A DNA stretch of 42,351 nt from Prevotella sp. (GTDB lineage: Bacteria; Bacteroidota; Bacteroidia; Bacteroidales; Bacteroidaceae), in NCBI GenBank assembly GCA_017615355.1, contig JAGAAJ010000144.1:1-42351 (forward strand), written 5' to 3'. Below, piece by piece: positions 4,041 through 42,351 of this stretch. Position 1 is the stretch's first letter. Each line of letters opens with the position of its first letter. The notes under the pieces were generated by a model, which ran no database searches, was not told the origin of the DNA, and saw nothing but the letters and a program-made list of their open reading frames with translations. The position numbers were made by a program, and so were the translations under genes.

Positions 4041-5150
4041 ATGGAAGAGCAGAAAGTTATCCTATCAGAGAATCTGGAGCAGACAGTCACAGAGGCTGTC
4101 CAGTCAACGCCGCACGACCGGCTGTTTGTCATTTGCGACACCCATACCCATGAGCTGTGCCTGCCATTGGTGAGCGGCTTCGAGTGCATGAAGGGTGCTC
4201 ATGTCATTACCATCCTGCCAGGCGACGAGCACAAGACGCTGCAACAGGTGGAGCAGGTGTGGAGCGAGCTGCAAAAGAATGGCGCCACCCGTCACTCGTT
4301 GTGCGTAAACATCGGCGGCGGAATGGTGACCGACCTGGCGGGCTTTGCCCTCAGCACCTTTAAGCGCGGCATGAGCTTCATCAACATCCCCACCACGCTG
4401 CTGGCAATGGTCGACGCCAGCGTGGGCGGCAAGACGGGCTTCAACTACGGCGGTCTGAAGAACGAGATTGGCGTCTTCAGCAATGCCGATGCCGTCATCC
4501 TCGACGCCACGTTCCTCCGCACCTTAGACAGGGAAAACATCCTCTCGGGCTATGCGGAAATGCTGAAACATGGATTGATTTATAGAGGAGAGAGGAAAGA
4601 GGAAAGAGGAGAGAGGAAAGAGGAAAGAGGAGAGAAGAGAGAGACACTTTTGCAGGAATTACTTTCCTACGACGTGGAGCAGCCGGACTTGGTGCAGCTG
4701 GGACGCATGGTGGCCGAGAGCGTGCAGGTGAAGCAGCGCATCGTGCTGGAAGACCCACGCGAACAGGGCCTGCGCAAGGCATTGAACCTCGGCCACACCA
4801 TTGGCCACGCCTTCGAGGCAATGGCTTTGGCTAAAGAGAGTCCCATATTGCACGGCTATGCCGTAGCCTACGGTCTGATGTGCGAGCTGTATCTCAGCGT
4901 GATGAAGACGGGCTTCCCTGTCGACACGATGCGTCAGGTGAACAGCTTCATCCTTGAGCACTATGGCCGCATGACCATCACCTGCGACGACTACCCCACC
5001 CTGCTTCAGCTGATGACACACGACAAGAAGAACACGGGCAGCCAGATCAACTTCACCCTGCTGCACGGCGTAGGCGACCTAGCTCTCAACCAGACGGCCA
5101 CCAAAGAAGAGATTGAAGAGGCGCTCGACTTCTATCGCGAGGGACTATAG
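4041..5150 (+). CDS. aroB: 3-dehydroquinate synthase
   Basis: Converts DAHP to 3-dehydroquinate, the second shikimate-pathway step, in the cytosol, using NAD and a divalent metal. The 369-residue protein shows GGGMVTDLAGFALSTFKRG (~93-110), INIPTTLLAMVDASVGGKTG (~115-132), YAEMLKHG (~171), GHTIGHAFEA (251-260) and HGYAVAYGLMCEL (~271), which together carry the metal and substrate ligands. The start at 4041 is preferred because a -7 promoter box lies at 4020-4027. Residues ~182-201 are a highly charged Arg/Glu/Lys/Gly segment encoded by a heptamer array just after YAEMLKHGLIY; aroB homologues normally have no such segment there, so it looks like an insertion that kept the frame open. The gene ends before a strong terminator and appears monocistronic. 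Confidence 0.96.
   Translation: MEEQKVILSENLEQTVTEAVQSTPHDRLFVICDTHTHELCLPLVSGFECMKGAHVITILPGDEHKTLQQVEQVWSELQKNGATRHSLCVNIGGGMVTDLAGFALSTFKRGMSFINIPTTLLAMVDASVGGKTGFNYGGLKNEIGVFSNADAVILDATFLRTLDRENILSGYAEMLKHGLIYRGERKEERGERKEERGEKRETLLQELLSYDVEQPDLVQLGRMVAESVQVKQRIVLEDPREQGLRKALNLGHTIGHAFEAMALAKESPILHGYAVAYGLMCELYLSVMKTGFPVDTMRQVNSFILEHYGRMTITCDDYPTLLQLMTHDKKNTGSQINFTLLHGVGDLALNQTATKEEIEEALDFYREGL
4585..4640 (+). repeat. Intragenic 7-nt array in aroB, 8 units
   Basis: Eight consecutive purine heptamers (gaggaga or gaggaaa, the last gaagaga), starting at 4585 and stepping by 7 nt. Seven does not divide by three, so the array is read through all three frames, giving the 7-residue peptide period GERKEER. 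No frame of the unit contains a stop. Confidence 0.9.
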
Positions 5151-5178
5151 AGCCATAAACATTGAGCATACAAGAAAA

Positions 5179-5209
5179 AGCCGCAACGGATATCCGCTGC
5201 GGCTCTTTT
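5179..5209 (+). terminator. Intrinsic terminator after aroB, probably bidirectional
   Basis: Stem agccgca (5179-5185) with tgcggct (5198-5204), extended inward by the palindrome cggatatccg, then ctttta. The aagaaaaag on the other side gives a U-rich tail for minus-strand transcripts, so it may also end the pectin operon. Confidence 0.8.
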
Positions 5210-5222
5210 ATTAACCTTGAGC

Positions 5223-5273
5223 TAAAGCTCGAGCTCGCTCACGCTCGATAAAGCATGAGCAAGCTCAGCTTTA
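5223..5273. repeat. Imperfect inverted repeat at the end of the pectin operon
   Basis: Arm 5223-5245 (starting taaagctcgagctc) pairs with 5252-5273 (ending agctcagcttta) with one bulge and few mismatches. The words gagctcgctcacgctcg and gagcaagctc suggest a dispersed repeat more than a protein site. It lies between the terminator and the CE8 stop codon. Confidence 0.65.
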
Positions 5274-5276
5274 TTC

Positions 5277-8200
5277 TCACTTAATCACGACCTTGCGGCC
5301 ATTGATGATGTAGAGACCCTTCTGAGCCTTCTGCACACGCACACCCTGCATGTTGTAGACAGCATTGTCGGCAGGCTGGCTGTCAGTAGCCAGCTCGTCG
5401 ATGCCAGTAACAACGGTGACGGTGACAGGTTCGCCAAGACCACCGCACGGGTTAGCTGCACGGAGCGTCAGGACGTCGTCATCACCAACCTGAATGTCGA
5501 AGCTGAAGCCTTGCGTCAGACCGACAAACACGCCGTTCTTGAACAGGGCATAGGCCGAGGCATTGTTATAGGTGGGTGACCATGTCACAGTTCCATTCTC
5601 AAGTTTGGCATCGTTGGGAGCCTGCACCTGTGTAGCCAGTGTCTTGGGATCCCAGTCGGTGAACATCTTGTCATAGGCGAAGCCTGCAGCCTGGTCGGCA
5701 GTGAGGATGGTCTCAAACGATCCACCGAAGGAGTTAATGATGTTGCTAGAGGGCGTGATGTCGTTGCCAGCAGCGTCCTTCGTACCGTACTCGCCGAAGA
5801 GCTTCGGGTCTTTGTTGTTCATACCCTTCTGGGTCCAGCGTGAGGAGACGAGGGTCTGTGCAGCATTGTTGTCGAGCGTGGTGTTCAGGTAGACCGTGAT
5901 AGGCTCGTTCTGCCAGGTACGGCCAAAGTTCCAGTCGCCCTTGCCCTTAGCCAGATCAACCACGGTGCAGCCGTCGAAGACATAACCGAACTGCGTGGTA
6001 GTGGTGGGAGCCACGATGGTACGTCCGCCAGTGCCGTCGGTCTTGCGAGGCTCCAGTGAGATGGTGGTGTTCTGGAAGCGGATGTCGCCACCGCCGCAGA
6101 TGAAGTCCACAGTACCGTGGATGTCGCAGTCCTCCCAGTAAGCCTGCTGGCTGCTGTTCGAGCTGTAGTAGGTGTCCTGATAAGAGAGCATGCGCACATT
6201 CTTACCGATGGTACGGTTACCGGCATCCTGGATGACGGCAGCACGTCCGGCAGAACCGGCGTTGTAGTAGTCAAGGGCGTTCTGCAGCGTCAGATCCTGC
6301 AAGTAGAGGTTGGTGCCGCTGATATCAAGCAAGTCTGCCTTGCCCAGTCCCTCGATGCTCTTGTCAGGCTTAGTGACGATGATGGTGTTGTCCATCGACT
6401 GACCGATGAGAGAGATGTTATGACCCGTAATAGCAGTCTTGACGGTAGTGTCGAGGTCGTATGTGCCGTCGGGCAGGAAGATGAACGAGCGCTCAGCATC
6501 CTTTGCAGCATTGACACCGTTCACCACGTCGAGCACGTCGATGAGACTGCCAGCATCGCCAGCCTTCACGAAGTACCAGTTGCCCTCGCTCTCGAAGTTG
6601 ACCTCGGCAGTATTCACAATCTTCATGCCGTGGATGTACATCTCGCCACCACACTGCATCTCCAGCGTCAGCGTGCCAGGCTCGCCCTCGTAGTTGAAGA
6701 CAGCCGTACCGCCGTCGCCATCAGACTTGCCCTCAATGGTAGCCAGCGTCTCGCCGTCCTTCTTCACAGCGATGCCGGTGGCAGAGCCATACTGGCAGAG
6801 CGTCACAGTGACAGTGGCCTTCGGGCCAACGAGCAGGTCGACGGTGTTGCCGTTCTTGAAGGCCCATCCGTGCTGTGCATCGTGCCAGTAGAAGCCGTCG
6901 CCAGCAGGATTGAATGCCTCGTGATCCTCGGCATAGAAGAACTTGTTGGTGAGGTCGAAGGTGTACTTCTTGTGGGTGCTGGCCTCCTCAATCTCGGTCT
7001 GGATGGCATAGAGCTTGGTGTTGCCGGTAATGACGTCGGCGGTGGTGAACTTCTCGCCCAAGACAGACGTCTTGAACCAACCACGAGCCTTGTAGCCTTC
7101 CTTCGTGGCAGCCACTTCAGCAATGTCGCAGGCGAACTCGCCAATGGCGGCATCCTTCTCCACGGTCTGCGTCTTCAGCACGGTGGTGCCGTCGACACCT
7201 ACATACTCCAGCGTGCAGAACGGCTTGTAGATCACATTCAGCACATAGTCCATCTGCGTATCAGCAGCCGTCAGGGGGATGGTGACCTTACACTGGCTTT
7301 GAGTGCCTTCGTAGGTCAGCTCGCCTACTTCACCGCTGGCAGCAGTAACGTCGGTCAGAGGATTCTCGGCGCTCACCATCGTCTCGCTATTCTTCAGCTC
7401 GAGAGTAGCCTCATACAATTCGCCGAACACATCCTCAGCAGCATATTCAGTGCCGTTGACCTTGAACGAGGCCAGGATGGGCACTTCCTTCTCAGTACCA
7501 CTCAGCGTACCTTCGATGACAATGTCGGCAAGACCCATCTGCTTCCCATCCTGCAGGTGATAGAGGAAGAGCTTCAGACCACATGTGCCTTCACCAGGTG
7601 TAGCACCAGTGACGTCGTAGTTTTTCTCAGTGACCAAACTTGAATTGTTGCGTTCTGGCTTAACACCCTTGTCCAGTTCGACAGTCGTGCCGTCAGAGTT
7701 TTGCCAGTAAACATCAATCAAACCATTGTCGGTACCGAAGCGGTTGGCCTTGAACGACACCTTAGTCGGTGTGAAGGCGAAGCCAGGTTTCGGAGTGAAG
7801 AGGAAGCTCACGGCATCATCATCAGTCAGATTGTCGTTATGCTGTTCAACAGGGGCCAAACGGGTCTCTGTTGTACCCATGTAGGTTTGTTTGTCCAGAA
7901 TGCTCCAGTTGCTTCCGTGTGTCACCTTGCTGTTGAGGAAGTAGTCGGCGTTGGAGAATGTAGCCTTCTGGTCCTCAGTACCCTCGTCGAACGGGAAGGT
8001 CACTGTAGCGGGCTCGTTATCAAGCGTGATCTTCTCCTTGGGAGCATACTGAACGACGGAGAGCGAATAGTAATAGTTGTTGTCGTTGACAGAAGTCACA
8101 GCTACATAGCCAACCTCGGCATCGCTGCGCTTGGCGGTGTAGGTAGTCACAGGATTGCTTTGCGTGTTCGTAATAATCTCATCGCTGTTGCCAATAGAGT

Positions 8201-10172: not shown

Positions 10173-10224
10173 ACTGTTTGTTTTTGGTTAATAATATGGT
10201 TAATTAAATTTGTATCGTTGATTG

Positions 10225-11976: not shown

Positions 11977-12009
11977 TTGTTTGGGTGATTTGTTAGATAG
12001 TTTGTTTTT

Positions 12010-16919: not shown

Positions 16920-17585
16920 TTATAGTTGGGTGAGTAAGCTACGCAATAAAGCAACGTCTTTCAGGGCTGGAGCTTTTTCAAAGCGAGAGTTGAGGTCGAT
17001 GCCGATGCATTGCGGATGATGGAACGCTTTTACACGTTCCGCATCGTCAGGACCAATGCCGCCGCTGAGCAGGAAGGGGACAGGGCCATGATAGGCATCA
17101 AGAAGCTGCCAGTCAAACTGTTGGCCACTACCACCAGGCACAGTAGCACGCGTGTCGAAAACGAAGGTATCAATGCAGTCGAAATATTGCTCGCAGGTCT
17201 TCAGGTCATCAGCACAACCCACGTTAATTGCTTTCCAAAACTGTATACCTGGACGAATGTCCGGGTCAAGGGTGGCACGCAGATTACGGATAACGGTGGG
17301 ACTCTCCTTGCCATGCATCTGCACCACGTCCAACTGGTAGTTCACCACCCGTGTGATAATGTTCTGCGGCATCTCGTCGACAAAAACGCCGGCTCGTTGT
17401 GGTGAGAGGTGAGAGGCAAGAGGTGAGAGGCTGGCACGGTCAGGGATGATGCCGGCATGTGTAGGCACCATCGTGACATTACGGGGCGAGCCTTTCCAGA
17501 AAATCATTCCGATATAATCGACACCGAGAGCCGCCACCTCGCGGATATTCTCACCGTCGCGCATACCGCAAACCTTTATCTTCAT
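16920..17585 (-). CDS. trpF: Phosphoribosylanthranilate isomerase
   Basis: Catalyses the Amadori rearrangement of phosphoribosylanthranilate to CdRP in tryptophan synthesis, in the cytosol. At 221 residues it is about the usual length. It starts MKIKVCGMRDGENI, with the catalytic Cys at residue 6; GVDYIGMIFWKGSPRNV, AGVFVDE, VVQMHGKE, VFDTRA (the probable catalytic Asp) and FLLSGGIGPDD are standard for the family. Residues ~47-64 (IPDRASLSPLASHLSPQR) are low-complexity and encoded by a heptamer array, sitting in the loop before AGVFVD where other TrpF proteins are shorter. No other trp gene is present. It lies 5 nt after a secreted esterase and is probably transcribed from the esterase promoter at 18465. 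Confidence 0.93.
   Translation of the reverse strand: MKIKVCGMRDGENIREVAALGVDYIGMIFWKGSPRNVTMVPTHAGIIPDRASLSPLASHLSPQRAGVFVDEMPQNIITRVVNYQLDVVQMHGKESPTVIRNLRATLDPDIRPGIQFWKAINVGCADDLKTCEQYFDCIDTFVFDTRATVPGGSGQQFDWQLLDAYHGPVPFLLSGGIGPDDAERVKAFHHPQCIGIDLNSRFEKAPALKDVALLRSLLTQL
17402..17429 (-). repeat. Intragenic 7-nt array in trpF, 4 units
   Basis: Plus-strand units gtgagag, gtgagag, gcaagag, gtgagag start at 17402, 17409, 17416 and 17423. They encode the LSPLASHLSP segment. The same gtgagag-type unit appears in menF at 29966-29986 and, as its complement, in menD. Confidence 0.88.
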
Positions 17586-29085: not shown

Positions 29086-29496
29086 ATGAACGTCGAAGGA
29101 ATCAATCAGATTATCAATGAGAGGCCCAACCTCAGCACCGCCCTCGGGATGGAGTTTATCTCCACGCCCGAGGGTGATACTTGTATGGCTCGCATGAAGG
29201 TGGACGAGCGCAATCGTCAGCCCTTCGGTTTCCTCAGCGGCGGAGCCTCCTTGGCTTTGGCCGAGAATGTAGCGGGAGTAGGTTCGTCGGCGCTCTGTCC
29301 CGGCTGTGCCTGCGTGGGCATTGAGGTGAGCGGCAGTCATGTGAAAGCTGTCTGCGAGGGCGACACCGTTACAGCCTACGCTCATCTGATTAGTCAGGGC
29401 TCCACGCTGCATGTGTGGCAGGTGGATATCCGCAACACTGCCGAGGAGCTGATTTCCAGCGTTCGTGTCACCAACTACATCATCCATCACAAATGA
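29086..29496 (+). CDS. menI: Hotdog thioesterase, probable 1,4-dihydroxy-2-naphthoyl-CoA hydrolase
   Basis: 136 residues, a single PaaI/4HBT-type hotdog domain. NRQPFGFLSGGASLALAE (43-60) is the active-site helix, with E60 as catalytic acid and SGG in place of the HGG of other members; GIEVSGSHVKAV and VWQVDIRN are the conserved strands. YdiI/MenI proteins hydrolyse DHNA-CoA in menaquinone synthesis. That role is inferred from the gene's position: its TGA overlaps the menF ATG by 4 nt, and menD follows. Alone, the sequence would only say acyl-CoA thioesterase. Confidence 0.82.
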   Translation: MNVEGINQIINERPNLSTALGMEFISTPEGDTCMARMKVDERNRQPFGFLSGGASLALAENVAGVGSSALCPGCACVGIEVSGSHVKAVCEGDTVTAYAHLISQGSTLHVWQVDIRNTAEELISSVRVTNYIIHHK

Positions 29497-30602
29497 ACAG
29501 CTTCGCCATCTTTCGTCTGCCGCATGCCGACAGCTGCACGATGATTGAAGGTGATGCCGTGGTTGTGCCTTCCCTTGCCGAGCTAGACGATCAGCAGGGT
29601 TTCCTCATAGCTCCCTTTATGGTCTCTGAGGAGGAGCCAATTGTACTCATTACCAATAACCATTGCACAATAGACAATCACCAATATCCGATAAACAACA
29701 ACCATTTTCCGGTCAACAATAGCCAACAACACTATCACGAAGACTTCTCCATCTTCCACAAGGCACTTACTGACGGACAATTCCGAAAGCTGGTGCTAGC
29801 ACGATGCGCTACCGTCGGCAACGACGGCAAGACCACGCCGATGGAGCTCTTCCAGAGAGCCTGCCAGCTCTATCCCCGCATGTTCGTGGCACTGGTCAGC
29901 ACACCGCAGAGTGGCATGTGGCTCACCGCCTCGCCTGAGATCCTATTGGAAAGTCTCCCACAGGCGGGAGAGGTAAGAGGGGAGCACCTTCCTGAAAGCC
30001 GTTGGCGCACCATTGCTTTGGCAGGCACGATGCGATTACGTTCCGACAAAGCCGACGACGAGGGACAGCACCTGCGCTGGTCGGCGAAGAACATCCAGGA
30101 GCAGCGCTATGTCGCCTCCTATCTTGCCGACGTGCTGCGCCGATTCTCCGATGACGTCTGCGAGGAGGGACCTCGCACCGTTCGTGCTGCCCATCTGGTG
30201 CATCTGCGCAGCGACTTCACCTTCTCCTTAGACAATAAAAGATGTACGCGCGTGGGAAAGCTCCTCGAAGCACTCCATCCCACCCCAGCCGTCTGCGGCC
30301 TGCCAAAGGACGAGGCACAGCGTTTCATCATCAGCCACGAACATTCCCCTCGCCACTACTACAGCGGCTTCATGGGGCCATTTAATATGAACGAAAACAA
30401 AAACGAAAATTTCACACCTCTCTCCTCACACCTCACGCATCTATTTGTCTCCCTCCGCTGTATGCACATCACCGACAGCGCCTACCATCTCTATGCCGGC
30501 GGCGGCCTTTTGTGCGAGAGCAACGAGCAGCAGGAGTGGCAGGAGACCGAAGCAAAGATGGACACCATGCGCCGCCTTTTAGTAACCCAATCATCCCAGT
30601 AG
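29493..30602 (+). CDS. menF: Isochorismate synthase
   Basis: Converts chorismate to isochorismate, the entry to menaquinone synthesis, in the cytosol with Mg. It is read as 369 residues from ATG 29493, which overlaps the menI stop. Family motifs: ARCATV, ALVSTPQSGMWLTASPEILL, TIALAGTMRL, WSAKNIQEQRYV (196-207), HPTPAVCGLP (262-271), SPRHYYSGFMGP (285-296) and YAGGGLLCESNEQQEWQETE (335-353), the last holding metal ligands. Three low-complexity segments interrupt the fold: ~54-80 (Asn/His/Gln-rich), ~156-169 and ~298-317, each coded by a heptamer array. The active-site motifs are untouched, so the enzyme is probably functional. Confidence 0.93.
   Translation: MNSFAIFRLPHADSCTMIEGDAVVVPSLAELDDQQGFLIAPFMVSEEEPIVLITNNHCTIDNHQYPINNNHFPVNNSQQHYHEDFSIFHKALTDGQFRKLVLARCATVGNDGKTTPMELFQRACQLYPRMFVALVSTPQSGMWLTASPEILLESLPQAGEVRGEHLPESRWRTIALAGTMRLRSDKADDEGQHLRWSAKNIQEQRYVASYLADVLRRFSDDVCEEGPRTVRAAHLVHLRSDFTFSLDNKRCTRVGKLLEALHPTPAVCGLPKDEAQRFIISHEHSPRHYYSGFMGPFNMNENKNENFTPLSSHLTHLFVSLRCMHITDSAYHLYAGGGLLCESNEQQEWQETEAKMDTMRRLLVTQSSQ
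29652..29728 (+). repeat. Intragenic 7-nt array in menF, 11 units
   Basis: Eleven units stepping by 7 nt from 29652 (accaata, accattg, cacaata, gacaatc, accaata, tccgata and so on). Position 3 is C in every unit except one, and positions 4-6 are mostly aat or aac. They encode the NNHCTIDNHQYPINNN stretch near residues 55-70 and beyond. Confidence 0.85.
29966..29986 (+). repeat. Short 7-nt array in menF, 3 units
   Basis: gggagag, gtaagag, gggagca from 29966. They are preceded by tctcccacaggcgggaga (29954-29971), a hairpin with 6-bp arms. They encode QAGEVRGEH between the SPEILL strand and the AGTM strand. Confidence 0.7.
30412..30439 (+). repeat. Intragenic 7-nt array in menF, 4 units
   Basis: tcacacc, tctctcc, tcacacc, tcacgca from 30412. 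They encode the FTPLSSHLTHL segment after FMGPFN. The unit is the complement of the gtgagag family found in trpF. Confidence 0.85.
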
Positions 30603-30612: not shown

Positions 30613-32319
30613 ATGTTCTCCAATAAGCCCAGCGTCAATATCCTTACCAGCCTGCTCGTAGCTCACGGCGTGAAGCATGCTGTAGTGTGTCCTGGCAGCA
30701 GGAACGCGCCCATCGTGCACAACCTGAACGAGTGCCCCGACATCAAGTGCTATCCCATCACCGACGAGCGGTCGGCGGGCTTCTTCGCCCTCGGCATCGC
30801 TCAGGCCACCGACGAGCCCGTGGTGGTGTGCGTCACCAGTGGGACGGCGCTACTCAACCTAGCTCCTGCCGTAGCCGAGGCCCACTATCAGCACCAGTCG
30901 CTCATCATCGTCTCTGCCGACCGCCCTGCTGAATGGATTGACCAGCTCGACGGCCAGACACTCCAACAGCCAGGTGCCCTCGCTCCTTGGGTGAAGAAAA
31001 CGGTAACCCTGCCCGATCTCTCACCTCTCTCCCCTCTTTCCTCTCTTCTCTCTCCTCTTCCTTGGCATTGCAACCGTCTGGTGAACGAGGCACTTATCGA
31101 GGCTACTGACGACACCCACCCCTGCGTGCACATCAACGTGCCGCTGAACGAGCCGCTGTTTGACTTCACCATTGAGACGCTGCCTGAGGAGCGTGTCATC
31201 CGACGCTATGCACCAGCCACCGACTACAGCTGTCTGCCGCAGCAGCTCCTCGACGACCTACAGAATGCCAAGCGCCCACTCATCGTCTTCGGACAGCTGA
31301 GCCCTCACCGTTTCCACTATGAAGGCATCGACCATCTCTTCAGCCATATCATCGTGCTACATGAGGCCCTTGCGCCCTTCACCAGCGTCAGTCCTTTCGA
31401 TGATGTGCTCACTCCCTCCTCACTCCTCCCTCCACTCTCCTCTCTCCACTCTCCTCTATCCTCCCTCCTACCTGATTTCATCCTCTATGTAGGCGATGCC
31501 ATCGTGAGCAAACGGCTGAAGCATTTTTTGCGTGAGGCGAAGGATGCTCACACTTGGCGTATCAGCTTGACGGGCGAGGTGGAGGACACCTTCCAGAATC
31601 TGCGTGGCCTCGTGGTAGGCGATGCCGAGGCTATCCTGCAGGCGCTGAGCACAAAGCTGTCGAACATGAAGCCTGCCCACGCCGTCGCCAAGACCAAATA
31701 CCGCAGACGGTGGCTGCAATTGCTGAGCGATGCCCGCCAGCAGCTCGACAATACCCCTCTGACCTTCAGCGAGGAGGGTGCCGTACGTCTGTTGGAAGAA
31801 CAGCTTCTCCACCTTCCACCCTCCACCTTCCACCTTCACTACGCCAACAGCACCGCCATCCGCCTGGCCAACCGCTATGCGAAGGGCCATCCCGTGTGGT
31901 GCAATCGTGGCACCAACGGCATTGAGGGCTCGCTCAGCACGGCAGCAGGGTTTGCAGCAGCCGCCCTCTCACCTCACACCTCTCATCCCTTACCTCTAAT
32001 TTTCTGTGTCATCGGCGACCTCAGCTTCTTCTACGACCAGAATGCGCTGTGGAATACGCTCCTTCCGCGTCTGAACCTGCGCATCCTGCTGCTGAACAAC
32101 GGCCACGGAGCCATCTTCGACCACCTGCAAGGCCTCGGTCAGAGTGCTGCCCATCCTGCCCTCGTGGCCGGAGCTCACCACACCACCGCCAAGGGTATCT
32201 GCCAGCAATGTGGTGTCAGTCGCCAAGTGGCCACCGACATGGAGCAACTGCAAAAAGGAATCCTCTGGCTTGCCAATGCTAAAACCAGAGGACCCCGTCT
32301 TTTGGAGGTGATGTTGTAA
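30613..32319 (+). CDS. menD: SEPHCHC synthase (menaquinone synthesis, ThDP enzyme)
   Basis: Condenses 2-oxoglutarate-derived succinic semialdehyde with isochorismate using thiamine diphosphate. Of 568 residues, the N-terminal Pyr domain has VVCPGSRNAPI and DERSAGFFALG with E52 as the cofactor-activating Glu. The PP domain has VIGDLSFFYDQNALW and LLNNGHGAIFDHL (~467-504), matching the MenD GDLSFLHD...NNNGGGIF pattern. GTNGIEGSLSTAAG is also diagnostic. Four low-complexity Pro/Ser/Leu/His segments (~136-150, 267-287, 399-409, 451-462) are coded by heptamer arrays; none removes a motif. The gene is 10 nt after menF. menB, menC and menE are not in the window, and the next gene is convergent with only 3 nt between stops. 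Confidence 0.95.
   Translation: MFSNKPSVNILTSLLVAHGVKHAVVCPGSRNAPIVHNLNECPDIKCYPITDERSAGFFALGIAQATDEPVVVCVTSGTALLNLAPAVAEAHYQHQSLIIVSADRPAEWIDQLDGQTLQQPGALAPWVKKTVTLPDLSPLSPLSSLLSPLPWHCNRLVNEALIEATDDTHPCVHINVPLNEPLFDFTIETLPEERVIRRYAPATDYSCLPQQLLDDLQNAKRPLIVFGQLSPHRFHYEGIDHLFSHIIVLHEALAPFTSVSPFDDVLTPSSLLPPLSSLHSPLSSLLPDFILYVGDAIVSKRLKHFLREAKDAHTWRISLTGEVEDTFQNLRGLVVGDAEAILQALSTKLSNMKPAHAVAKTKYRRRWLQLLSDARQQLDNTPLTFSEEGAVRLLEEQLLHLPPSTFHLHYANSTAIRLANRYAKGHPVWCNRGTNGIEGSLSTAAGFAAAALSPHTSHPLPLIFCVIGDLSFFYDQNALWNTLLPRLNLRILLLNNGHGAIFDHLQGLGQSAAHPALVAGAHHTTAKGICQQCGVSRQVATDMEQLQKGILWLANAKTRGPRLLEVML
31018..31059 (+). repeat. Intragenic 7-nt array in menD, array 1 (6 units)
   Basis: ctctcac, ctctctc, ccctctt, tcctctc, ttctctc, tcctctt from 31018; encodes the LSPLSPLSSLLSPLP segment (residues ~136-150) just after the Pyr-domain VKKTVTLPD strand. 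Confidence 0.88.
31411..31473 (+). repeat. Intragenic 7-nt array in menD, array 2 (9 units)
   Basis: Nine units stepping by 7 from 31411 (actccct, cctcact, cctccct, ccactct, cctctct, ccactct, cctctat, cctccct, cctacct). The total of 63 nt is exactly 21 codons, so the array could be added or lost without a frameshift. It encodes a Ser/Leu/Pro segment at residues 267-287. Confidence 0.92.
31807..31834 (+). repeat. Intragenic 7-nt array in menD, array 3 (4 units)
   Basis: ctccacc, ttccacc, ctccacc, ttccacc, then ttcac; a clean 14-nt super-period. It encodes LPPSTFHLHY before the ANSTAIRLA helix. Confidence 0.88.
31966..32000 (+). repeat. Intragenic 7-nt array in menD, array 4 (5 units)
   Basis: ctctcac, ctcacac, ctctcat, cccttac, ctctaat from 31966; encodes ALSPHTSHPLPLI directly before the cofactor-binding strand FCVIGDLSF. 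Confidence 0.85.
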
Positions 32320-33990: not shown

Positions 33991-33996
33991 TTTTTA

Positions 33997-34031
33997 GTTG
34001 ATGGTTGATGGTTGAAGGTTAATGGTTGAAG
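33997..34031 (-). repeat. Intergenic 7-nt array, 5 units
   Basis: gttgatg, gttgatg, gttgaag, gttaatg, gttgaag from 33997. It occupies most of the 48-nt gap between the acyl-CoA synthetase stop and the kinase start. Confidence 0.9.
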
Positions 34032-34038
34032 GCTATGT

Positions 34039-36213: not shown

Positions 36214-36221
36214 TTTTTAGA

Positions 36222-36255
36222 GGTAGTTAGGGGTAGTTATGGGTAGTTAGGGGTA
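36222..36255 (-). repeat. 10-nt tandem repeat between esterase and acyl-CoA synthetase genes
   Basis: ggtagttag, gggtagttat, gggtagttag, gggta: period 10 nt, about 3.4 units. It fills nearly the whole 46-nt gap. Confidence 0.85.
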
Positions 36256-36259
36256 AACA

Positions 36260-37717
36260 CTACCAGTTGTCCGTGCGGAAGGGGAAGAGCGGCAGTCCTG
36301 CGCCATTCTTCACATTGCCTATCTGGAAGTTCTTGAAGCAGTAGCGCACGGCCACCGGCTTCTCAACCTCCGGCGAGCTGACGATGATGGCCTCATCCCA
36401 ATAGCCGCCGCCCGGCTGCCAGAAATGCACGGCCTGGGCAGGATGGAACACACGGTCGTCGCCGGCCACCTCGAAGCCCTCGATGTCCTCGAAGCGGCTC
36501 ATGGCACCATACTCGTCCTGCAGATGGATATACACCTTGCCGTCCTTGATCATCATGTCCTTGAACGACGAGCCCTTGTACCACACCTGCTCGAAGCCAT
36601 AGTCGCGGTTCAGGGCCGTGTATGCCAGGCGCTCGCCCACCTGCCGCTTCTGTGCAGGGTGAATCTGCGTCGTCTCGTAGGGATACACCAGGTCGTTGGT
36701 GCTCACCAGCGAGCTGTTGGGGATGATCTGCTGAGCACGATACTGCTGCTCACGCAGACGGGCACCGTTGTCGGCGTTCACGTTGTCGTAGTGGAAGGGA
36801 GCAATCTCCACGAAGTAGAAGGGAATCTCGCCCAGGCCGAACTGTCCGCGCCACTGCTCCACCAGCAGCTTCAGACGCTCGGAATACTGGTTGCCGGGAT
36901 CGCCCACGTTGGAGCAGCCCTGATAGAAGAGGATGCCCTTCACCGTGTAGTTCAGTATCGGGTTAAACGTGCCGTTGCCCCATAGCAGCGCACGCTGGTA
37001 GTCGTACTCCGGCTTGAAGTTCACGATGCCCATCGTGTCCGTCGGCTCCTGGGTGTATTTCTGCAGGTTCTCCTTCGTCAGCCAGCTCTCCACACGCGAT
37101 CCGCCCTTGTTCGCCTCGATGATGCCCACAGGCATGTTGAGCGTCTTGCTCAGCAGACGTGCGAAGAAATAGCCCGTAGCCGAGAACTCGCCCACCGTCT
37201 GCGGTGCACACACCTGCCACTGGCATTGGGCGTCCTCCTGCGGCTCCATGCGCATGATGCTGGGAATCTTCAGCGAGCGCACGCCCGGATGGTTCACGGC
37301 GTCGAGGATCACCTCGTTGTGGTCTTCCACAGGACAGTTGCCGAAGCCCTTCACCGGCATCTCCATGTTCGACTGACCTGCGCACACCCACACCTCGCCT
37401 ACGAGCACGTTGCTCACCGTCAGCGCCTCGCCGTCGTCGAAGGTGATTGTCTGCGGCTCGAAGCTCGCCTTCGGTGTCTTCACCCTCACCAGCCATCGGC
37501 CGTCCTTGTCCGTGGTGGCCGTCACCTTCTCCTGGCTCCACGAGGTCGTCACCGTCACCTTCTGCTTCGGCCTATCCCATCCCCAGAGCCTCACCTCCGT
37601 CTGCTGCTGAATCACCATGTTGTCGCCAATCATGTGCGGCAGCCGCACCTTCGCCTCAGCCGTCATGGCCAGAGCGGCGAGTGTCATCACGAATATCAGT
37701 CTTCTCATCGTTGTCAT
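36260..37717 (-). CDS. Secreted SGNH acetylesterase (sialate O-acetylesterase-like)
   Basis: Removes O-acetyl groups from sugars such as sialic acid or plant polysaccharides, in the periplasm or outside. 485 residues with a signal peptide (1-22, AMTAEAK); the start may instead be Met4 (37708). A beta-sandwich (~24-105, VRLPHMIGDNMVIQQQTEV) precedes the catalytic part: block I VWVCAGQSNMEMPV with S116, ANKGGSRVESWL, YQGCSNVGD, and the late IHPAQKRQVGERLA holding the catalytic His. The layout matches the sialate O-acetylesterase family. It is the first gene of a minus-strand run with the acyl-CoA synthetase and nucleoside kinase, with a -7 box at 37744. Near pectin genes an acetylated plant polymer is as likely a substrate as sialic acid. 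Confidence 0.88.
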   Translation of the reverse strand: MTTMRRLIFVMTLAALAMTAEAKVRLPHMIGDNMVIQQQTEVRLWGWDRPKQKVTVTTSWSQEKVTATTDKDGRWLVRVKTPKASFEPQTITFDDGEALTVSNVLVGEVWVCAGQSNMEMPVKGFGNCPVEDHNEVILDAVNHPGVRSLKIPSIMRMEPQEDAQCQWQVCAPQTVGEFSATGYFFARLLSKTLNMPVGIIEANKGGSRVESWLTKENLQKYTQEPTDTMGIVNFKPEYDYQRALLWGNGTFNPILNYTVKGILFYQGCSNVGDPGNQYSERLKLLVEQWRGQFGLGEIPFYFVEIAPFHYDNVNADNGARLREQQYRAQQIIPNSSLVSTNDLVYPYETTQIHPAQKRQVGERLAYTALNRDYGFEQVWYKGSSFKDMMIKDGKVYIHLQDEYGAMSRFEDIEGFEVAGDDRVFHPAQAVHFWQPGGGYWDEAIIVSSPEVEKPVAVRYCFKNFQIGNVKNGAGLPLFPFRTDNW

Positions 37718-37743
37718 TGTTACTCATTTTAGGTTTGATGCTG

Positions 37744-37751
37744 CAAAGATA
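37744..37751 (-). promoter_or_regulatory. -7 box upstream of the SGNH acetylesterase
   Basis: TATCTTTG on the minus strand, 27 nt before ATG 37717. No convincing -33 box at 19-20 nt. Confidence 0.5.
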
Positions 37752-37856
37752 CGATTATTTTTTCAATTCATATCATCTATCAACTAAAAAATTCTTCACC
37801 ACCCATCCTCCTTCGTGATAGTGACGACATGAACAAGCACCCCCGACTGACAACAT

Positions 37857-37895
37857 CACACAAAAAAGCCCCGAATTTCGGGGCTTTTTTGTGTG
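37857..37895. terminator. Strong symmetric intrinsic terminator
   Basis: A perfect 39-nt palindrome around one central base: cacac, A6, gccccgaa, t, ttcggggc, T6, gtgtg. It works in either direction. No annotated gene ends just before it on either strand, which points to an unannotated transcript. Confidence 0.85.
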
Positions 37896-37913
37896 TTATG
37901 TACTTTCTGCCAT

Positions 37914-37950
37914 ATAAAAATCTCGCACGACCTTCACAGGGGGTGCGAGA
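37914..37950 (-). terminator. Second hairpin with U-tract upstream of the symmetric terminator
   Basis: tctcgcac (37921-37928) pairs with gtgcgaga (37943-37950) around a 14-nt loop, followed on the minus strand by a T-rich stretch. Possible attenuator. Confidence 0.45.
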
Positions 37951-38060
37951 CAACATGTTTTAAAAGGTTAATTTTCATAATACTTTACAGCATAGTATCA
38001 CTACTGGCTGGAAAGAGGAATAAATTCCAATGATTTTATATGAATAAAATAATTTGTCTG

Positions 38061-38068
38061 CAAAGATA
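38061..38068 (-). promoter_or_regulatory. -7 box for the candidate small RNA
   Basis: TATCTTTG on the minus strand, in a very AT-rich region. No good -33 box at 19-20 nt. Confidence 0.4.
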
Positions 38069-38163
38069 GCAATTTTATCTTTTATAAAAGACAAAAACAA
38101 TAAAAAAAATTTCTTATCTACTATATTTGAGATAAAGTCGGCTGTTATATCAAAGAAAAACTG

Positions 38164-38171
38164 TATCTTTG
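38164..38171 (+). promoter_or_regulatory. -7 box of the VanW gene
   Basis: TATCTTTG, 62 nt before ATG 38234. A second candidate, TATATTTG, lies at 38122-38129. Both support the start at 38234, because the longer frame from 38054 would cross them and its N-terminal codons are AT-rich, unlike the rest. Confidence 0.55.
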
Positions 38172-38233
38172 TCGCTGAAAACCAACATGCGGATATCCGC
38201 ACAGAAGCAGATTATACCATCAGAAAAAAGGAC

Positions 38234-39079
38234 ATGAATCGGAAACTGTTTTGTGAAATTTCGCCATTCACCTATCGTCTGTCGATGGAGAAGGGAATCC
38301 TGAAACGCCATCTTCAGGACCTGCTGCATAAGACTCGTTTCGCCTCGAAGCGGTCTGAGACATCCTTGCCCGTGACCGTCTATCGCCACAATTCCCTTAT
38401 TCGTCGCCGACTGGGCAATGTCAACATGCAGTTACAGGAGAACAAAGCGACAAACCTGGCTCTGGCCGTAAGACATATCGACGGGTTGCTGATTCATCCC
38501 GGCGAGACCTTCTCAGTATGGAAACTCATCGGGCGAACCACCAAGCGAAAGGGATACAAAGAGGGACTGACCATCGCTAAGGGGCAGCCCTCACAGGGCA
38601 TCGGTGGAGGAATGTGCCAGCTGTCGAACCTGATTCACTGGCTAGTATTGCACAGCGAACTGACCATTACGGAGCATCATCACCACGACGGCCTGGATCT
38701 GTTTCCCGACTTCGGCCGTCAGATTCCCTTCGGAACGGGCACCAGCATATCGTACAACTATATCGATTATCGTTTCAGGAATGATACCGCCAACACCTAT
38801 CAGCTTCGGCTTTGGGTGGACGACGAGTATCTTTGGGGCGAGCTGCGTGCTGCAGAACAACAGCCACACACCTTCCACATTCATGCCGAGAACGAATTCT
38901 TCTCACGTGAGAATGGAGTGGTGTATCGCAACGGTGAGGTTTTTCGTGATACCATCGATCGTGAAACCGGCCGTTGTCTCACGAGCCAACTCATCCGCAC
39001 CAACCATGCCAGGGTGATGTATGAATGTCCGCCGGACTGTCAGATCATTACTATCCCAGCAGATTCTTCAGCTTGCTGA
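38234..39079 (+). CDS. VanW family protein
   Basis: 281 residues from ATG 38234 (MNRKLFCEISPFTY), with no signal peptide. The VanW domain spans ~75-230: GNVNMQLQENKATNLALAV, IHPGETFSVWKLIGRTT, KRKGYKEGLTIAKGQ, GIGGGMCQLSNLIHWLVLHS (the conserved GGGxCQ motif) and ITEHHHHDGLDLFPDF. VanW is an accessory gene of some vancomycin-resistance clusters with no proven biochemical role; it occurs widely outside them. No van ligase, dehydrogenase or dipeptidase is nearby, so a resistance role is not supported. Its last 29 nt overlap the convergent LytTR gene. Confidence 0.85.
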   Translation: MNRKLFCEISPFTYRLSMEKGILKRHLQDLLHKTRFASKRSETSLPVTVYRHNSLIRRRLGNVNMQLQENKATNLALAVRHIDGLLIHPGETFSVWKLIGRTTKRKGYKEGLTIAKGQPSQGIGGGMCQLSNLIHWLVLHSELTITEHHHHDGLDLFPDFGRQIPFGTGTSISYNYIDYRFRNDTANTYQLRLWVDDEYLWGELRAAEQQPHTFHIHAENEFFSRENGVVYRNGEVFRDTIDRETGRCLTSQLIRTNHARVMYECPPDCQIITIPADSSAC

Positions 39080-39983
39080 CATTGCTGCGAGAAACAGGGA
39101 TGGCATCATGACTGTGACGCATGATGAGCTGCATGGCACGGGAATTGGAGGAAATTTGGTCTACCTGGCCGAGATTGACCATGAAGGCTCGATGGCAGCG
39201 CACAATCATGGGATAAGACTGTAGCGTGTCTTCCATCTGTTTCATCGTGGCACGAAGCATGTTGGTCTTCACCTCGCCATCGTGCAGTTGGCATACCTTG
39301 ACATAGTTGCCAACGGCCTCAATATATAACAGGTCTGAAATCTTGAGGCTGACATGCTCGTTGGTGGCTCCTGTAAGGGTAACCCCCTCTAAATCTCCCC
39401 GAGGGGAGACTTTTGGGACGCCCTCCTCTCCTCCCATCGGGGAGTCTGGGAAGGGGTGACTTGGGTCGGTGGAGGCTTCTTTTTGAAATTTCTTCAGCTG
39501 CTCGTTCAGAAGACGGGTCTCCTCGAGTTCTGCGGCCAGATAATGGCTGCGGAACTTGAATCGCCAGTAGAGACCGATGGCGAAGGAGAGGAAGGCGATG
39601 ATCACCAACGTCTCGATATAATTGGTCAGGGAAAACACGTTGGAGGGGATTTGCAATCCCCGACTGGAGCTCATCGCGAAATGGCGATAGAGGCAGATGA
39701 GGAGCGACACCAACGGGGTGTTGATGCATTGGAAGCGGAGATTGCGGCTGATGATATAGCTGACGCCACGATCGTAGGAGCGGGGCATGCGGACCACATA
39801 TTTCAGAATGACTTCCGTCAGAAAACAACTGAACAGGCCCAAGGCAAAGATACCCAGCAAATGAATATAGGCCTGCCATTGCCACACTTCGAGTCCGAAA
39901 GGCTTGAAGATGGCCAACGCCAGTACGATGAAGGCGCAGCTGACAATACGGATGCTGATGGTTTGTTTGTGACCTTGGTTCAT
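39051..39983 (-). CDS. Membrane-anchored LytTR DNA-binding regulator
   Basis: 310 residues from ATG 39983. A longer frame to 40019 exists, but the -7 box at 39992-39999 lies within it, which leaves a nearly leaderless message. Residues ~10-145 hold about four hydrophobic segments (SCAFIVLALAIFKPFG, LLGIFALGLFSCFLTEVIL, LVSLLICLY, LVIIAFLSFAIGLYW). A coiled-coil-like linker follows (HYLAAELEETRLLNEQLKKF). Residues ~205-310 are a LytTR domain (LKISDLLYIEAVGNYVKV, MLRATMKQMEDTL, IVRCHRAFMVNL, IPVSRS), which binds direct repeats on DNA. There is no receiver domain. Residues ~172-201 are a Pro/Gly/Ser segment from an inserted repeat. It is divergent from the beta-barrel gene at 40205, a plausible target. 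Confidence 0.9.
   Translation of the reverse strand: MNQGHKQTISIRIVSCAFIVLALAIFKPFGLEVWQWQAYIHLLGIFALGLFSCFLTEVILKYVVRMPRSYDRGVSYIISRNLRFQCINTPLVSLLICLYRHFAMSSSRGLQIPSNVFSLTNYIETLVIIAFLSFAIGLYWRFKFRSHYLAAELEETRLLNEQLKKFQKEASTDPSHPFPDSPMGGEEGVPKVSPRGDLEGVTLTGATNEHVSLKISDLLYIEAVGNYVKVCQLHDGEVKTNMLRATMKQMEDTLQSYPMIVRCHRAFMVNLGQVDQISSNSRAMQLIMRHSHDAIPVSRSNVSKLKNLLG
39381..39470 (-). repeat. G/C-rich palindromic repeat inserted in the LytTR gene
   Basis: The plus strand reads ccccctctaaatctccccgaggggagactttt-like, then a second half with cccatcggggagtctggg. The core ctccccgaggggag is a perfect hairpin. This kind of element is common between genes in Bacteroidota; here it lies in frame, in the linker between the coiled coil and the LytTR domain (~residues 172-201). 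Confidence 0.75.
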
Positions 39984-39991
39984 ACAGCCGA

Positions 39992-39999
39992 CAAAAGTA
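39992..39999 (-). promoter_or_regulatory. -7 box of the LytTR gene
   Basis: TACTTTTG on the minus strand, only 8 nt before ATG 39983, so the transcript would be leaderless or nearly so. The expected -33 position lies in the aattcat array. Confidence 0.6.
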
Positions 40000-40012
40000 C
40001 GAAAAAATTCGT

Positions 40013-40037
40013 AATTCATAATTCATAATTCATAATT
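40013..40037 (-). repeat. Intergenic 7-nt array, 3.5 units
   Basis: aattcat at 40013, 40020 and 40027, then aatt. It covers the -33 region of the LytTR promoter, as the actatga array does for aroB. Confidence 0.9.
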
Positions 40038-40063
40038 ATTTAACGCCGCTCATCACTTTTCGG

Positions 40064-40097
40064 CCATTTCATCACACATTTATGCCCATTTATCACA
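40064..40097 (+). promoter_or_regulatory. Candidate LytTR operator: two direct repeats
   Basis: ccatttcatcaca (40064-40076) and ccatttatcaca (40086-40097) repeat with 22-nt spacing, two helical turns, as LytTR regulators usually need. They lie about 50-80 nt upstream of the beta-barrel gene's -7 box, between it and the LytTR gene. Sequence-only inference. Confidence 0.4.
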
Positions 40098-40122
40098 AAC
40101 ATACGCAGAATATCCCAAATAC

Positions 40123-40153
40123 TTGTAGACTTTTGTAGTTATTTATACTTTTG
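40123..40153 (+). promoter_or_regulatory. Promoter of the second outer-membrane beta-barrel gene
   Basis: TTG (40123-40125, preceded by C), 20 nt, then TACTTTTG (40146-40153), about 51 nt before ATG 40205. Confidence 0.65.
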
Positions 40154-40204
40154 CAGCGTCGAAAGAATTGACAAATTGAACAAATAATACAAAACAGGTA
40201 AAAA

Positions 40205-42351
40205 ATGAAAAAGATTGTATTTTGGATGACAGCCCTGATAGTTGCCTTAATGATGTCGATGACAGCTCATGCCAACCGATGGAGCAGCGAGAACAGAGCG
40301 ATGCTTGCATCAGCTATGTCGAGTCGCGACAGAGGTCGAGTAGTGCTCAAGACACAAGATTGGGGCGGACGAGTGATTGACGAGAAAGGCGAGCCGATGC
40401 CCTTTGTAAATGTGGTACTGTTGTCGCTGCCCGATTCTGCCTTCGTACAGGGTGCGACGACTGACGACCAGGGCGTATTTAAGATTGTGACTGATGTGAA
40501 CGACGGTCTCTTCAAGGTGACCAGCGTGGGTTATCAGACCATCTATATGAAGGCCGGTCAGGACCTGACCATCCAGATGAAGGAAGACACCCAGCTGCTG
40601 AATGAAGTGGTGGTGAAAGGTCAGCTGCCAAAGACTCACGTGAAGGGTGATGCCATGCGAACCACCGTTGCAGGAACTGTTCTGGAAAAAGCCGGTACGG
40701 TGAGCGACGCATTGGGAAAGATTCCTTCGCTCGAAGCCGAACGCGATGGTGCCATCAAGGTGCTGGGTCGCGGCGATGCCGAGGTGTATATCAACGGTCG
40801 CAAGGTGCAGGATGTCAGCGAGCTCTCACGTCTGCGCTCCGATCAGATTCAGCACGTCGACGTGGTGCATAATCCTGGTGCCCGCTATGCTGCATCGACC
40901 AAGGCCGTGGTACGTATCACGCTGAAGAAGGCACAGGGTGAGGGCATCTCGTTCCAGGACAACCTGGGCGGCATCTACCAGTACGGTCACACGCTGACCA
41001 ACAACCTCGACGTGAACTACCGTACGGGAGGACTCGATGTCACCGCCTCGCTGTGGGCCGGCCGCTACGGTCATGCAAAGAGTCTGCAGGAAAACGACCT
41101 TACCTATTACGTCGGCCCCGACTTCTACCTCGGTCGCAGTAATCAGGAAACTACGCATGTGTGGAAGGGATGGTCGCCACAGCTGCAGCTGAATTATATG
41201 GTGGACGAAAACCACAGCTTTGGTGCTTTCTACAAGTATGACCGTCATCCCGGTGGCGATGCCGACAGCTATTTCTATACCGACAACTATGTCAATGGTG
41301 TCTATACTGAGCGCTCAGAGAGCCACATCACTGGCGATGACAACTTCCGCAAGCACATCTTTAACGCTTACTACAACGGAAGAGTGGGACAGTTGGGCAT
41401 CGACTGGAACGTGGACGGACTTTTCGACAAGACCACAGACAACAACAGCACAGACGAAGTGACCACAGATGCAGAGAAGAACAGCAGCAACCACGGCATC
41501 AAAAGTCAGACCAATAGCAGCAACAACTTCTGGGCCACGAAGCTCATATTCAGCTATCCCGTGTGGAAGGGCAACCTCAGCGTAGGCGGCGAGTACAGCT
41601 ACAACCACCGCACCGATGCCTACTCCTTCCTTTCCACAGAGACACTGCCCGTAAAGGCTACCGACACGGAGATCAACGAAAAGTCGGCCGCTGCCTTCGC
41701 GGAGTACGGGCGTCCCTTCGGCAAGCTCTATGCCCAAGTGGGCTTGCGCTATGAACATCTGCAGAACGACTACTATAACTTCGGCAAGAAGGAGGATGAG
41801 GTATGCCGCAACTATGGCGACTGGTTCCCCACCGCATCGCTCTCCATGCCCGTGGGCAAGGTGCAGCTCTCGCTCTCCTATCGCAAGGACATCGAGCGAC
41901 CGGGCTATTCGAACCTCACCAGTTCGACGGTCTACATCAACCGCTACACCTACCAGAGCGGCAACCCCTATCTGCGGCCTACCTATACACACAATGTCGT
42001 GCTCAACACCGCCTACAAGTGGGCGGGCATGGTGGTGACCTACTCGCGCACCAAGGACAATGTGACGATGGCCACGGAGCCCTTCCCCGGCTCTGACGAT
42101 CCTTTCGTCAGCCTCGTCCGCACCATCAACGGCAGCGACGGCTACGACCAGCTGAGCCTCAATCCCTATGCCAGCCCAACTGTGAACTTTGAACTGTGCA
42201 CTATGAACTGCTCATGGCATCCTACATGGTTCGTCTATGCCCAATGGCAGAACTATAAGGCACCGAGTGCCGACGGTAGTGAGATCACCCTCAACCATCC
42301 GTATGCAAACATAGGATGGGACAACACGGTAGAATTGCCCCAAGGCTGGCG
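40205..42351 (+). CDS. Outer-membrane beta-barrel protein (truncated by window end)
   Basis: Open from ATG 40205 to the window edge (715 codons, no stop). Signal peptide 1-23 (MMSMTAHAN); after a short Arg/Ser linker, a carboxypeptidase-regulatory-like domain (~53-130, GGRVIDEKGEPMPFVNVVLL). A plug-like region follows (~140-250: VSDALGKIPSLEAERDGAI, AEVYINGRKV, IQHVDVVHNPGARYAAS), then barrel strands (SLSYRKDIERPGYSNL, SGNPYLRPTYTHNVVLNTAY) of the OMP_b-brl_3 family. The pattern NPGARYAA...KAVVRITLKK is typical of this family and differs from SusC, and no SusD is near. Its divergent LytTR neighbour may control it. A heptamer array lies near the end. Confidence 0.9.
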   Translation, partial: MKKIVFWMTALIVALMMSMTAHANRWSSENRAMLASAMSSRDRGRVVLKTQDWGGRVIDEKGEPMPFVNVVLLSLPDSAFVQGATTDDQGVFKIVTDVNDGLFKVTSVGYQTIYMKAGQDLTIQMKEDTQLLNEVVVKGQLPKTHVKGDAMRTTVAGTVLEKAGTVSDALGKIPSLEAERDGAIKVLGRGDAEVYINGRKVQDVSELSRLRSDQIQHVDVVHNPGARYAASTKAVVRITLKKAQGEGISFQDNLGGIYQYGHTLTNNLDVNYRTGGLDVTASLWAGRYGHAKSLQENDLTYYVGPDFYLGRSNQETTHVWKGWSPQLQLNYMVDENHSFGAFYKYDRHPGGDADSYFYTDNYVNGVYTERSESHITGDDNFRKHIFNAYYNGRVGQLGIDWNVDGLFDKTTDNNSTDEVTTDAEKNSSNHGIKSQTNSSNNFWATKLIFSYPVWKGNLSVGGEYSYNHRTDAYSFLSTETLPVKATDTEINEKSAAAFAEYGRPFGKLYAQVGLRYEHLQNDYYNFGKKEDEVCRNYGDWFPTASLSMPVGKVQLSLSYRKDIERPGYSNLTSSTVYINRYTYQSGNPYLRPTYTHNVVLNTAYKWAGMVVTYSRTKDNVTMATEPFPGSDDPFVSLVRTINGSDGYDQLSLNPYASPTVNFELCTMNCSWHPTWFVYAQWQNYKAPSADGSEITLNHPYANIGWDNTVELPQGW
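42179..42213 (+). repeat. Intragenic 7-nt array in the second beta-barrel gene, 5 units
   Basis: actgtga, actttga, actgtgc, actatga, actgctc from 42179; the unit matches the actatga family upstream of aroB. It encodes TVNFELCTMNCS within the barrel, so it was either tolerated as a strand or loop, or is a partly adapted copy. Confidence 0.75.

Follow-up and report, generated by a model that had tools for sequence, protein, structure and literature searches.

Heptanucleotide tandem arrays in conserved genes of Prevotella: placement, turnover and possible spread as hairpin elements

The window analysed here, a 42,351-nucleotide (nt) stretch (contig JAGAAJ010000144.1 of the Prevotella sp. assembly GCA_017615355.1), contains tandem arrays of 7-nt units, several of which lie in frame within genes for core enzymes, among them aroB, trpF and menD. 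Arrays of this kind are abundant in the source genome (G000; 3.25 Mb, 147 contigs, 90% complete; the window is its contig C88) and in some of its relatives. The explanation that we favour, in which our belief and our doubt are about equal, is that heptamer arrays spread within genomes, both as the arms of hairpins and as solo copies, grow by slippage and survive in frame where they fall in permissive protein loops.

Period-7 arrays in the window and in other genomes

Period-7 segments were scored with +1 for a match and -2 for a mismatch, using a cut-off of at least 10 for segments of the window and of at least 12 for genome-wide counts. Nine such segments were found in the window, compared with none, two, two and two for periods 5, 6, 8 and 9, respectively, and the multiples of seven gave seven (period 14) and four (period 21); in 100 windows generated with an order-5 Markov model the mean was 0.07 period-7 segments and the maximum was one. 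Six of the nine clear arrays lie within reading frames (aroB, trpF, three in menD and one in an outer-membrane open reading frame, ORF) and three, beginning at 3982, 33997 and 40006, lie between genes or at gene starts, in agreement with an earlier note on this DNA, made from the letters alone, which had placed arrays outside reading frames as well. That note had counted ten in-frame arrays with an exact 7-nt period. In addition to the six clear ones, three are degenerate yet significant at lag 7 upon letter shuffling (Table 1), whereas the one in menF near 29969, with a score of just 5, shows no periodicity by itself; 'exact' was an overstatement, since most arrays are imperfect.

The 7-nt periodicity exceeds chance throughout the genome, contrary to one of the two outcomes that the earlier note had named as refuting. 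A sample of 433,551 bases of G000 yielded 50 period-7 arrays versus 10, 9 and 8 for periods 6, 8 and 9, and one order-3 Markov copy of this sample yielded none for periods 6-9; no period-7 array was found in two 50-kb stretches (100 kb) of Escherichia coli MG1655. Chance periodicity as the source of the arrays is ruled out by the Markov windows, the neighbouring periods and the E. coli control. A larger sample of G000 gave 73 arrays in 729,287 bases, and comparable numbers were obtained for G200 (64 in 460,954 bases), a sister species that is colinear with the window across 37 kb at 86% identity, and for the more distant G207 (45 in 400,000 bases). The single-contig genome G117, on the other hand, has just five in 400,000 bases, so that some Prevotella lineages are rich in arrays and others poor. 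The pieces taken from other genera in the family contain eight arrays in 343,700 bases (one piece having been chosen for its repeats) and class- and phylum-level pieces around aroB contain two in 115,121 bases. In the finished genome of P. communis strain E15-14, three arrays occur in 21 kb, one of them in a chorismate-binding enzyme adjoining menD, at a loop that also carries an array in menF of the window.

Placement inside genes and coding constraint

We called genes from ORFs ourselves and classed 179 arrays from the three array-rich genomes (G000, G200 and G207) accordingly: 82 are genic, 51 sit at gene edges and 46 are intergenic. Stop-free units predominate in genes, as had been anticipated: the unit of a coding array is stop-free in the sense direction in 74 of 82 cases, a figure that arises partly by construction because the coding call requires an open frame, versus 40 of 82 in antisense. 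The corresponding sense and antisense values are 19/51 and 24/51 at gene edges and 23/46 and 18/46 between genes. In UvrA of G000, the sole unit that would place TGA in frame reads TGT (by eye). The median longest perfect run is 17.5 nt for arrays in coding genes and 19 nt for those between genes. Growth of coding arrays in 21-nt steps was considered and rejected, lag 21 being no better than lag 7 or 14.

The genes concerned encode recognizable proteins. Outside the window, 24 array-bearing ORFs of G000 were listed and 20 scanned, 19 of which match Pfam at 1e-10; these 19 include UvrA, Mfd (TRCF), LeuA, glutamine synthetase III, PrmA, a SpoU methylase and a P-type ATPase. When compared with solved structures, the arrays of UvrA coincide with the positions of insertions, those of Mfd fall in a stretch between aligned blocks and that of glutamine synthetase falls on a diverged stretch of similar length. 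The array-bearing enzymes are very probably still functional, and no benefit of the arrays is needed to explain them.

Recurrence and replacement at equivalent sites

Comparison of G000 with G200 identified 39 unique orthologous sites with an array in either species: at 23 an array (score at least 9) is present in one species only, at 12 both species carry arrays of different units and at four the unit is identical. Length differences were classed for 47 of 55 entries, some sites being counted from both sides. Among non-zero differences, those in coding sequence are multiples of 3 in 19 of 20 cases and of 7 in two of 20, those between genes are multiples of 3 in none of five and of 7 in four of five (one unit), and those at gene edges are multiples of 3 in three of six and of 7 in two of six.

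The aroB loop contains heptamers in the window, two inverted GC-rich palindromes in G200 and one palindrome in G201, a second sister species. The corresponding AroB segment, delimited by alignment (68 of 68 loci located; a motif regular expression had failed on seven of 29 genus loci), measures 49 amino acids (aa) in the window, 65 aa in G200 and 34 aa in G201, compared with a median of 31 aa (29-51) at 34 genus loci, two of which are long (L124 and L142, with 45 and 51 aa), and with 27-33 aa at 29 class- or phylum-level loci. The alignment with relatives proposed in the earlier note singles out the AroB segment: most aroB orthologues lack it, and the other outcome named there as refuting, its presence in distant genera, was not observed. 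The loops of menD and menF recur with arrays of other units.

At site A of uvrA (flank identity of G000 and G200, 94 and 92%), G000 carries an inverted heptamer pair, where G200 has an inverted palindrome pair, G201 another palindrome type and G203 a further pair (types assigned by eye); in three other species the site spans 68-107 nt and no repeat was recognized by eye. Site B has no repeat in G000 and inverted heptamer pairs in G200 and G201 (by eye), and at site C the heptamers of G000 correspond to palindromes in G200 and to stretches of 29-35 nt in G201, G202 and G206.

A survey of menD covered 46 genes (from 80 loci and the window, with one frameshifted copy excluded), 14 of which bear arrays; of the 21 arrays in these genes, 20 are no more than 20 aa away from one of the four loops that carry arrays in the window. 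Outside the clade of the window this applies to 13 of 13 arrays versus 3.8 expected from an even distribution, although some of the genes are from close relatives and are hence partly non-independent. The units differ between most species. menF was located by motif in 61 of 81 sequences, eight of which have an array (score at least 9) in one shared loop; these include the finished P. communis genome, where the unit is unrelated and the ORF matches PF00425, and one further menF loop holds a palindrome (by eye). The loci L047 and L050 were rejected as a genome-wide close pair, since they are 94.5% identical at menD yet 66-83% identical in the larger matches (at least 200 bases) of one 20-kb piece, and the pair was therefore used at the menD locus only. 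Nor are the array sites reserved for heptamers, since some equivalent loops of sister species carry unrelated palindromic repeats.

Two other repeat types were observed in the pieces scanned. A GC-rich palindrome resembling repetitive extragenic palindromes (REP), of the type CTCCCCTCCC-N4-GGGAGGGGYNRGGGGTGGG, gave 13 matches (by eye), including L012 15114-15185, L149 8372 and L153 4844, some as inverted pairs and some in genes. Arrays of 9-nt units of the ACTTATAGG/ACTCATAGG type are a second tandem family in G207 (L047 1069 and 9133; L165, L172 and L173); that at L047 1069 stands where L050 carries heptamers.

Paired arrays and hairpin elements

Among 74 array pairs separated by 8-250 nt (a few arrays being counted in several pairs), 26 are inverted with matching units, 13 are direct and 35 are unrelated; among far pairs, each orientation accounts for 4-11%. 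The inverted arms flank a core, and 45 distinct cores were obtained. The motif A[AT]TA[CG], chosen post hoc, borders the arm at 20 of 90 core ends versus 1.6-2.3% in controls, and the words that stand out in the cores are chiefly AT-rich, with ATTACC in six cores versus 0.9 expected. A search of 299 genomes of the genus with the core pattern GATTACCTTGC...TATTC, derived partly from L046, gave 31 matches at 29 places versus four for the reversed pattern. Fifteen of the 29 distinct places were fetched, mostly picked for their core-like ends: ten (one of them, L330, being the same place as L046) have period-7 arms on both sides, the inverted units of which match within one base, two (L333 and L334) have a left-hand array and, on the right, an arm shorter than two units that matches by eye, and three lack arms. 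At L339 a wholly different unit surrounds identical core ends.

In G101 and G056, arms and core are part of a larger element, roughly 160 nt long, that has terminal inverted repeats and what look like TTA/TAA duplications (by eye), as in miniature inverted-repeat transposable elements (MITEs); G101 has three copies, one of them at the L046 place. MITE-like termini were seen by eye in L329-L332 and L334, with a related form in L333. At the uvrA sites, inverted doublets of about 90-130 nt include heptamer-armed ones. We tentatively suggest, with clearly more doubt than confidence, that heptamer arrays may be the stems of an unrecognized class of small hairpin elements, in which the core ends (GATTACC...TATTC) would be conserved and the stem unit would change in both arms together, so that the hairpin is retained although its stem differs between lineages. 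Solo genic arrays would then be arms or relics, and the conserved protein loops would be landing places where, from one sister to the next, these elements and unrelated REP-type doublets take each other's place.

Unit sequences

The units are skewed in composition: in 86 of 179, six or all seven bases are of one class (purine or pyrimidine), which is true of 14.5% of random heptamers. Within a genome, arrays separated by more than 10 kb have a common unit in 5.2% (G000), 8.8% (G200) and 3.4% (G207) of pairs, compared with 6.8% between the sisters G000 and G200 and 0.6% between G000 or G200 and G207, which have equal GC content; for G117, with its five arrays, the values are 0/9 within the genome and 0.4-2.2% with other genomes. 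Over G000, G207 and G117, within-genome sharing is 0.049 versus at most 0.037 in all 2000 label permutations, near pairs being retained. The array units are lineage-specific. The commonest unit of G000, taken as an exact 18-base pattern, occurs in six of 151 family genomes, G000 included. G566 (L292 9217-9327), a genome from another genus of the family, has nine exact matches to the commonest heptamer array of G000, for which transfer and convergence are candidate origins.

In 122 kb of sister alignment away from the arrays, indels of 7, 8 and 9 nt number seven, eight and six, respectively, without a peak at 7 nt, and a single exact tandem duplication of at least four bases was found. Taken together, the unit and indel data speak for spread from arrays already present rather than for constant local seeding, although they fall short of proof of copying.

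Origin of the arrays

According to the explanation that we favour, arrays would spread inside a genome as arms of MITE- or REPIN-like hairpin elements (REPINs being inverted REP doublets moved by RAYT, the REP-associated tyrosine transposase), solo arrays would be copied from other arrays, and the copies would be lengthened and homogenized by 7-nt replication slippage and conversion. Selection would weed the arrays, and genic copies would be retained only if the frame is kept, stops are avoided and the loop is permissive. A number of results weigh against this account. Paired arrays are a minority of all arrays, and none of the nine arrays of the window has an inverted partner within 300 nt (the best matches reach 9-11 of 14 letters); because these arrays are solo, a hairpin origin can be ascribed to them conditionally at most. 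The end motif is present at both ends of just two of 45 cores. Within-genome sharing of units is on the whole no higher than sharing between sisters, which leaves copying after their split unsupported, and the density in G117 is low. RAYT as a driver was considered and rejected, Y1_Tnp (PF01797) being present in seven of 11 array-rich and five of 12 array-poor genomes (most of the 23 were classed by one locus of up to 22 kb), with no match in the 90%-complete G000 and one each in G200 and G207; reverse transcriptase was likewise rejected, RVT_1 (PF00078) being present in five of 11 and four of 12. Finally, spread by itself leaves the period of seven unaccounted for.

Slippage alone is an alternative. 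Polymerase slips of 7 nt would expand chance purine-rich seeds locally and selection would keep the harmless products, with no copying between loci; PMC4692102 reports the idea that 7 nt reflects the length of DNA held by the polymerase, and this contact length may set the period. The purine/pyrimidine skew of the units and the one-unit change in four of the five intergenic length differences agree with such a process, as does the weak trace (score 5-8) kept by the counterpart at 17 of the 23 one-species-only sites, a further point against spread. However, the other six counterparts score below 5, and two sisters lack anything equivalent to the 33-nt insertion in menF (that no seed is present was judged by eye); lineages of equal GC content have units of their own, and away from arrays there is neither an excess of 7-nt indels nor more than one exact tandem duplication, albeit in a small sample. 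We regard slippage alone as a possible explanation, though one that we rather doubt.

The remaining alternatives are considerably weaker. Since 7 is not a multiple of 3, gain or loss of a single unit shifts the frame, and the arrays might be phase-variable contingency loci that switch enzymes on and off under selection; but they occur in housekeeping genes (uvrA, mfd, leuA and aroB), they are impure, the frame is kept in nearly all coding length differences between the sisters and other repeats occupy some equivalent loops, and we consider this very unlikely. A fixed period with lineage-specific units would also be expected if a sequence-templating enzyme, for instance a reverse transcriptase with a short RNA template, wrote heptamers in the manner of telomerase. 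The many different units per genome speak against such an enzyme, as do the failure to find PF00078 in the 90%-complete G000 and the lack of association with array density in the 23 genomes, and it has little probability in our view. That the arrays are artefacts of the assembly or binning of metagenome-assembled genomes is barely credible: G000 is in 147 contigs and short reads cope badly with repeats, but separately assembled sisters have arrays at many equivalent loops and the finished P. communis E15-14 genome contains them, one at the menF loop of the window.

Features of the window

The assignments of the array-bearing genes (Table 1) rest on family models and structure matches. AroB scores 313.7 bits against TIGR01357 (cut-off 305) when the longer ORF 3993-5147 is taken. 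MenF belongs to the chorismate-binding enzymes, its score against TIGR00543 (208.4 bits) being below the cut-off of 224.75, and the closest named records to MenD are from uncultured Prevotellaceae (88% and 81% identity). No Rfam family reaches its gathering score anywhere in the window.

Table 1. Heptamer arrays and array-bearing genes of the window. Lag-7 p values are from letter shuffling and are unadjusted.
Feature	Position	Strand	Remarks
Heptamer array (AACTATG/AACTCTC)	3982-4013	+	Upstream of aroB; also in G200, not seen in G201
aroB, 3-dehydroquinate synthase	4041-5150	+	Presumed start at 4041; TIGR01357 and PDB matches
In-frame heptamer array (AGAGGAR) in aroB	4584-4643	+	AroB loop after EMLKHGLI
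trpF, phosphoribosylanthranilate isomerase	16920-17585	-	PF00697, PDB matches
In-frame heptamer array in trpF	17401-17430	-	G200 version 21 nt longer, with a palindrome within (by eye)
menF, isochorismate synthase	29494-30602	+	PF00425; presumed start, ATG at 29494
Degenerate heptamer array in menF	29655-29735	+	Lag-7 p = 0.0026; cleaner array at the equivalent spot in G200
33-nt in-frame insertion in menF	29955-29987	+	Short palindrome and two heptamers (by eye); lacking in G200 and G201
Weak heptamer array in menF loop	30412-30436	+	Score 7; lag-7 p = 0.0004 for 30405-30445; loop holds different arrays in L047/L050 and P. communis (L089)
menD, SEPHCHC synthase	30613-32319	+	TIGR00173, 315.9 bits (cut-off 244.2)
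Heptamer array, MenD loop 1	31018-31058	+	
Heptamer array, MenD loop 2	31412-31473	+	
Heptamer array, MenD loop 3	31808-31837	+	
Weak heptamer array, MenD loop 4	31966-32002	+	Lag-7 p = 0.0002
Intergenic heptamer array (GTTGATG)	33997-34029	+	G200 7 nt longer here
Heptamer array (AATTCAT)	40006-40037	+	Overlaps the first bases of LytTR-type ORF 39051-40019
Heptamer array (AACTGTG)	42178-42210	+	Inside outer-membrane ORF 40205-42349
Beta-barrel-type outer-membrane ORF	40205-42349		Open-ended, runs off the window; 715 aa; PF14905

Further repeats were noted in the window. Positions 36217-36255 hold an intergenic 10-nt tandem array (TTAGGGGTAG), where G200 instead carries heptamers with an unrelated unit. 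Positions 1-700 form a dispersed multi-copy segment, pieces of which match many contigs of G000 at about 68-100% identity; it contains inverted arms of 9-nt period around 330-385 and 505-551 (by eye), an architecture that resembles the heptamer-armed hairpins. A 42-nt insertion after aroB (5215-5260), palindromic by eye, is absent from G200.

Relation to known repeats and implications

Rickettsia palindromic elements are short repeats that lie in frame within coding genes and are tolerated there, and in-frame insertion into conserved coding genes is shared by the Prevotella arrays; the window arrays differ in being tandem heptamers without a palindrome, although palindromes are found at some sister loops. 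To our knowledge, repeats entering housekeeping proteins at such a scale are otherwise represented solely by these Rickettsia elements. The inverted doublets at the uvrA sites are reminiscent of REPINs, but the window arrays are solo, the arms are heptamer arrays and G000, as far as its 90% completeness goes, lacks a Y1 transposase match. MITEs are defined by terminal inverted repeats and target duplication, and the element of G101 and G056 shows, by eye, terminal inverted repeats, probable TTA/TAA duplications and, in addition, heptamer arms; no such termini were seen around the window arrays, where the inverted partner alone was tested. The short tandemly repeated repetitive (STRR) sequences of Calothrix are heptameric short tandem repeats.

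The heptameric short tandem repeats known from cyanobacteria, Beggiatoaceae, Xanthomonas and some Bacteroidetes (PMC4679880, PMC4692102) resemble the Prevotella arrays in their 7-nt unit, their many arrays per genome and the variation of unit number and sequence at one place between close relatives. By the description given there, those repeats lie mainly between genes and belong to one or a few unit families, whereas nearly half of the Prevotella arrays (82 of 179) are in genes, they occupy loops of core enzymes and their many units are lineage-specific. According to PMC4679880, TAACTGA repeats occur in Beggiatoaceae, cyanobacteria and five Bacteroidetes, mostly between genes, with some in ORFs near protein ends; heptamer-derived satellites in bacteria are also noted in PMC6749651. 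The earlier surmise that heptamer invasion was undescribed in Bacteroidales therefore stands in part: because heptamer repeats had already been described in Bacteroidetes, only the scale, the placement in the middle of core enzymes and the swapping with other repeats look new in the literature searched. Among the papers listed by searches of open-licence PMC, none was recognized from its title and abstract opening as an account of heptamer arrays in Prevotella genes.

In this bacterial lineage, conserved housekeeping proteins have been entered by short repeats time and again, apparently without being destroyed, and the gene and protein models of these bacteria contain many segments that derive from repeats. 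A concrete candidate for the vehicle of the arrays is the heptamer-armed MITE. The arrays flag loops of essential enzymes that tolerate foreign peptides, and array-rich Prevotella provide a tractable system for addressing why long bacterial microsatellites favour a period of seven.

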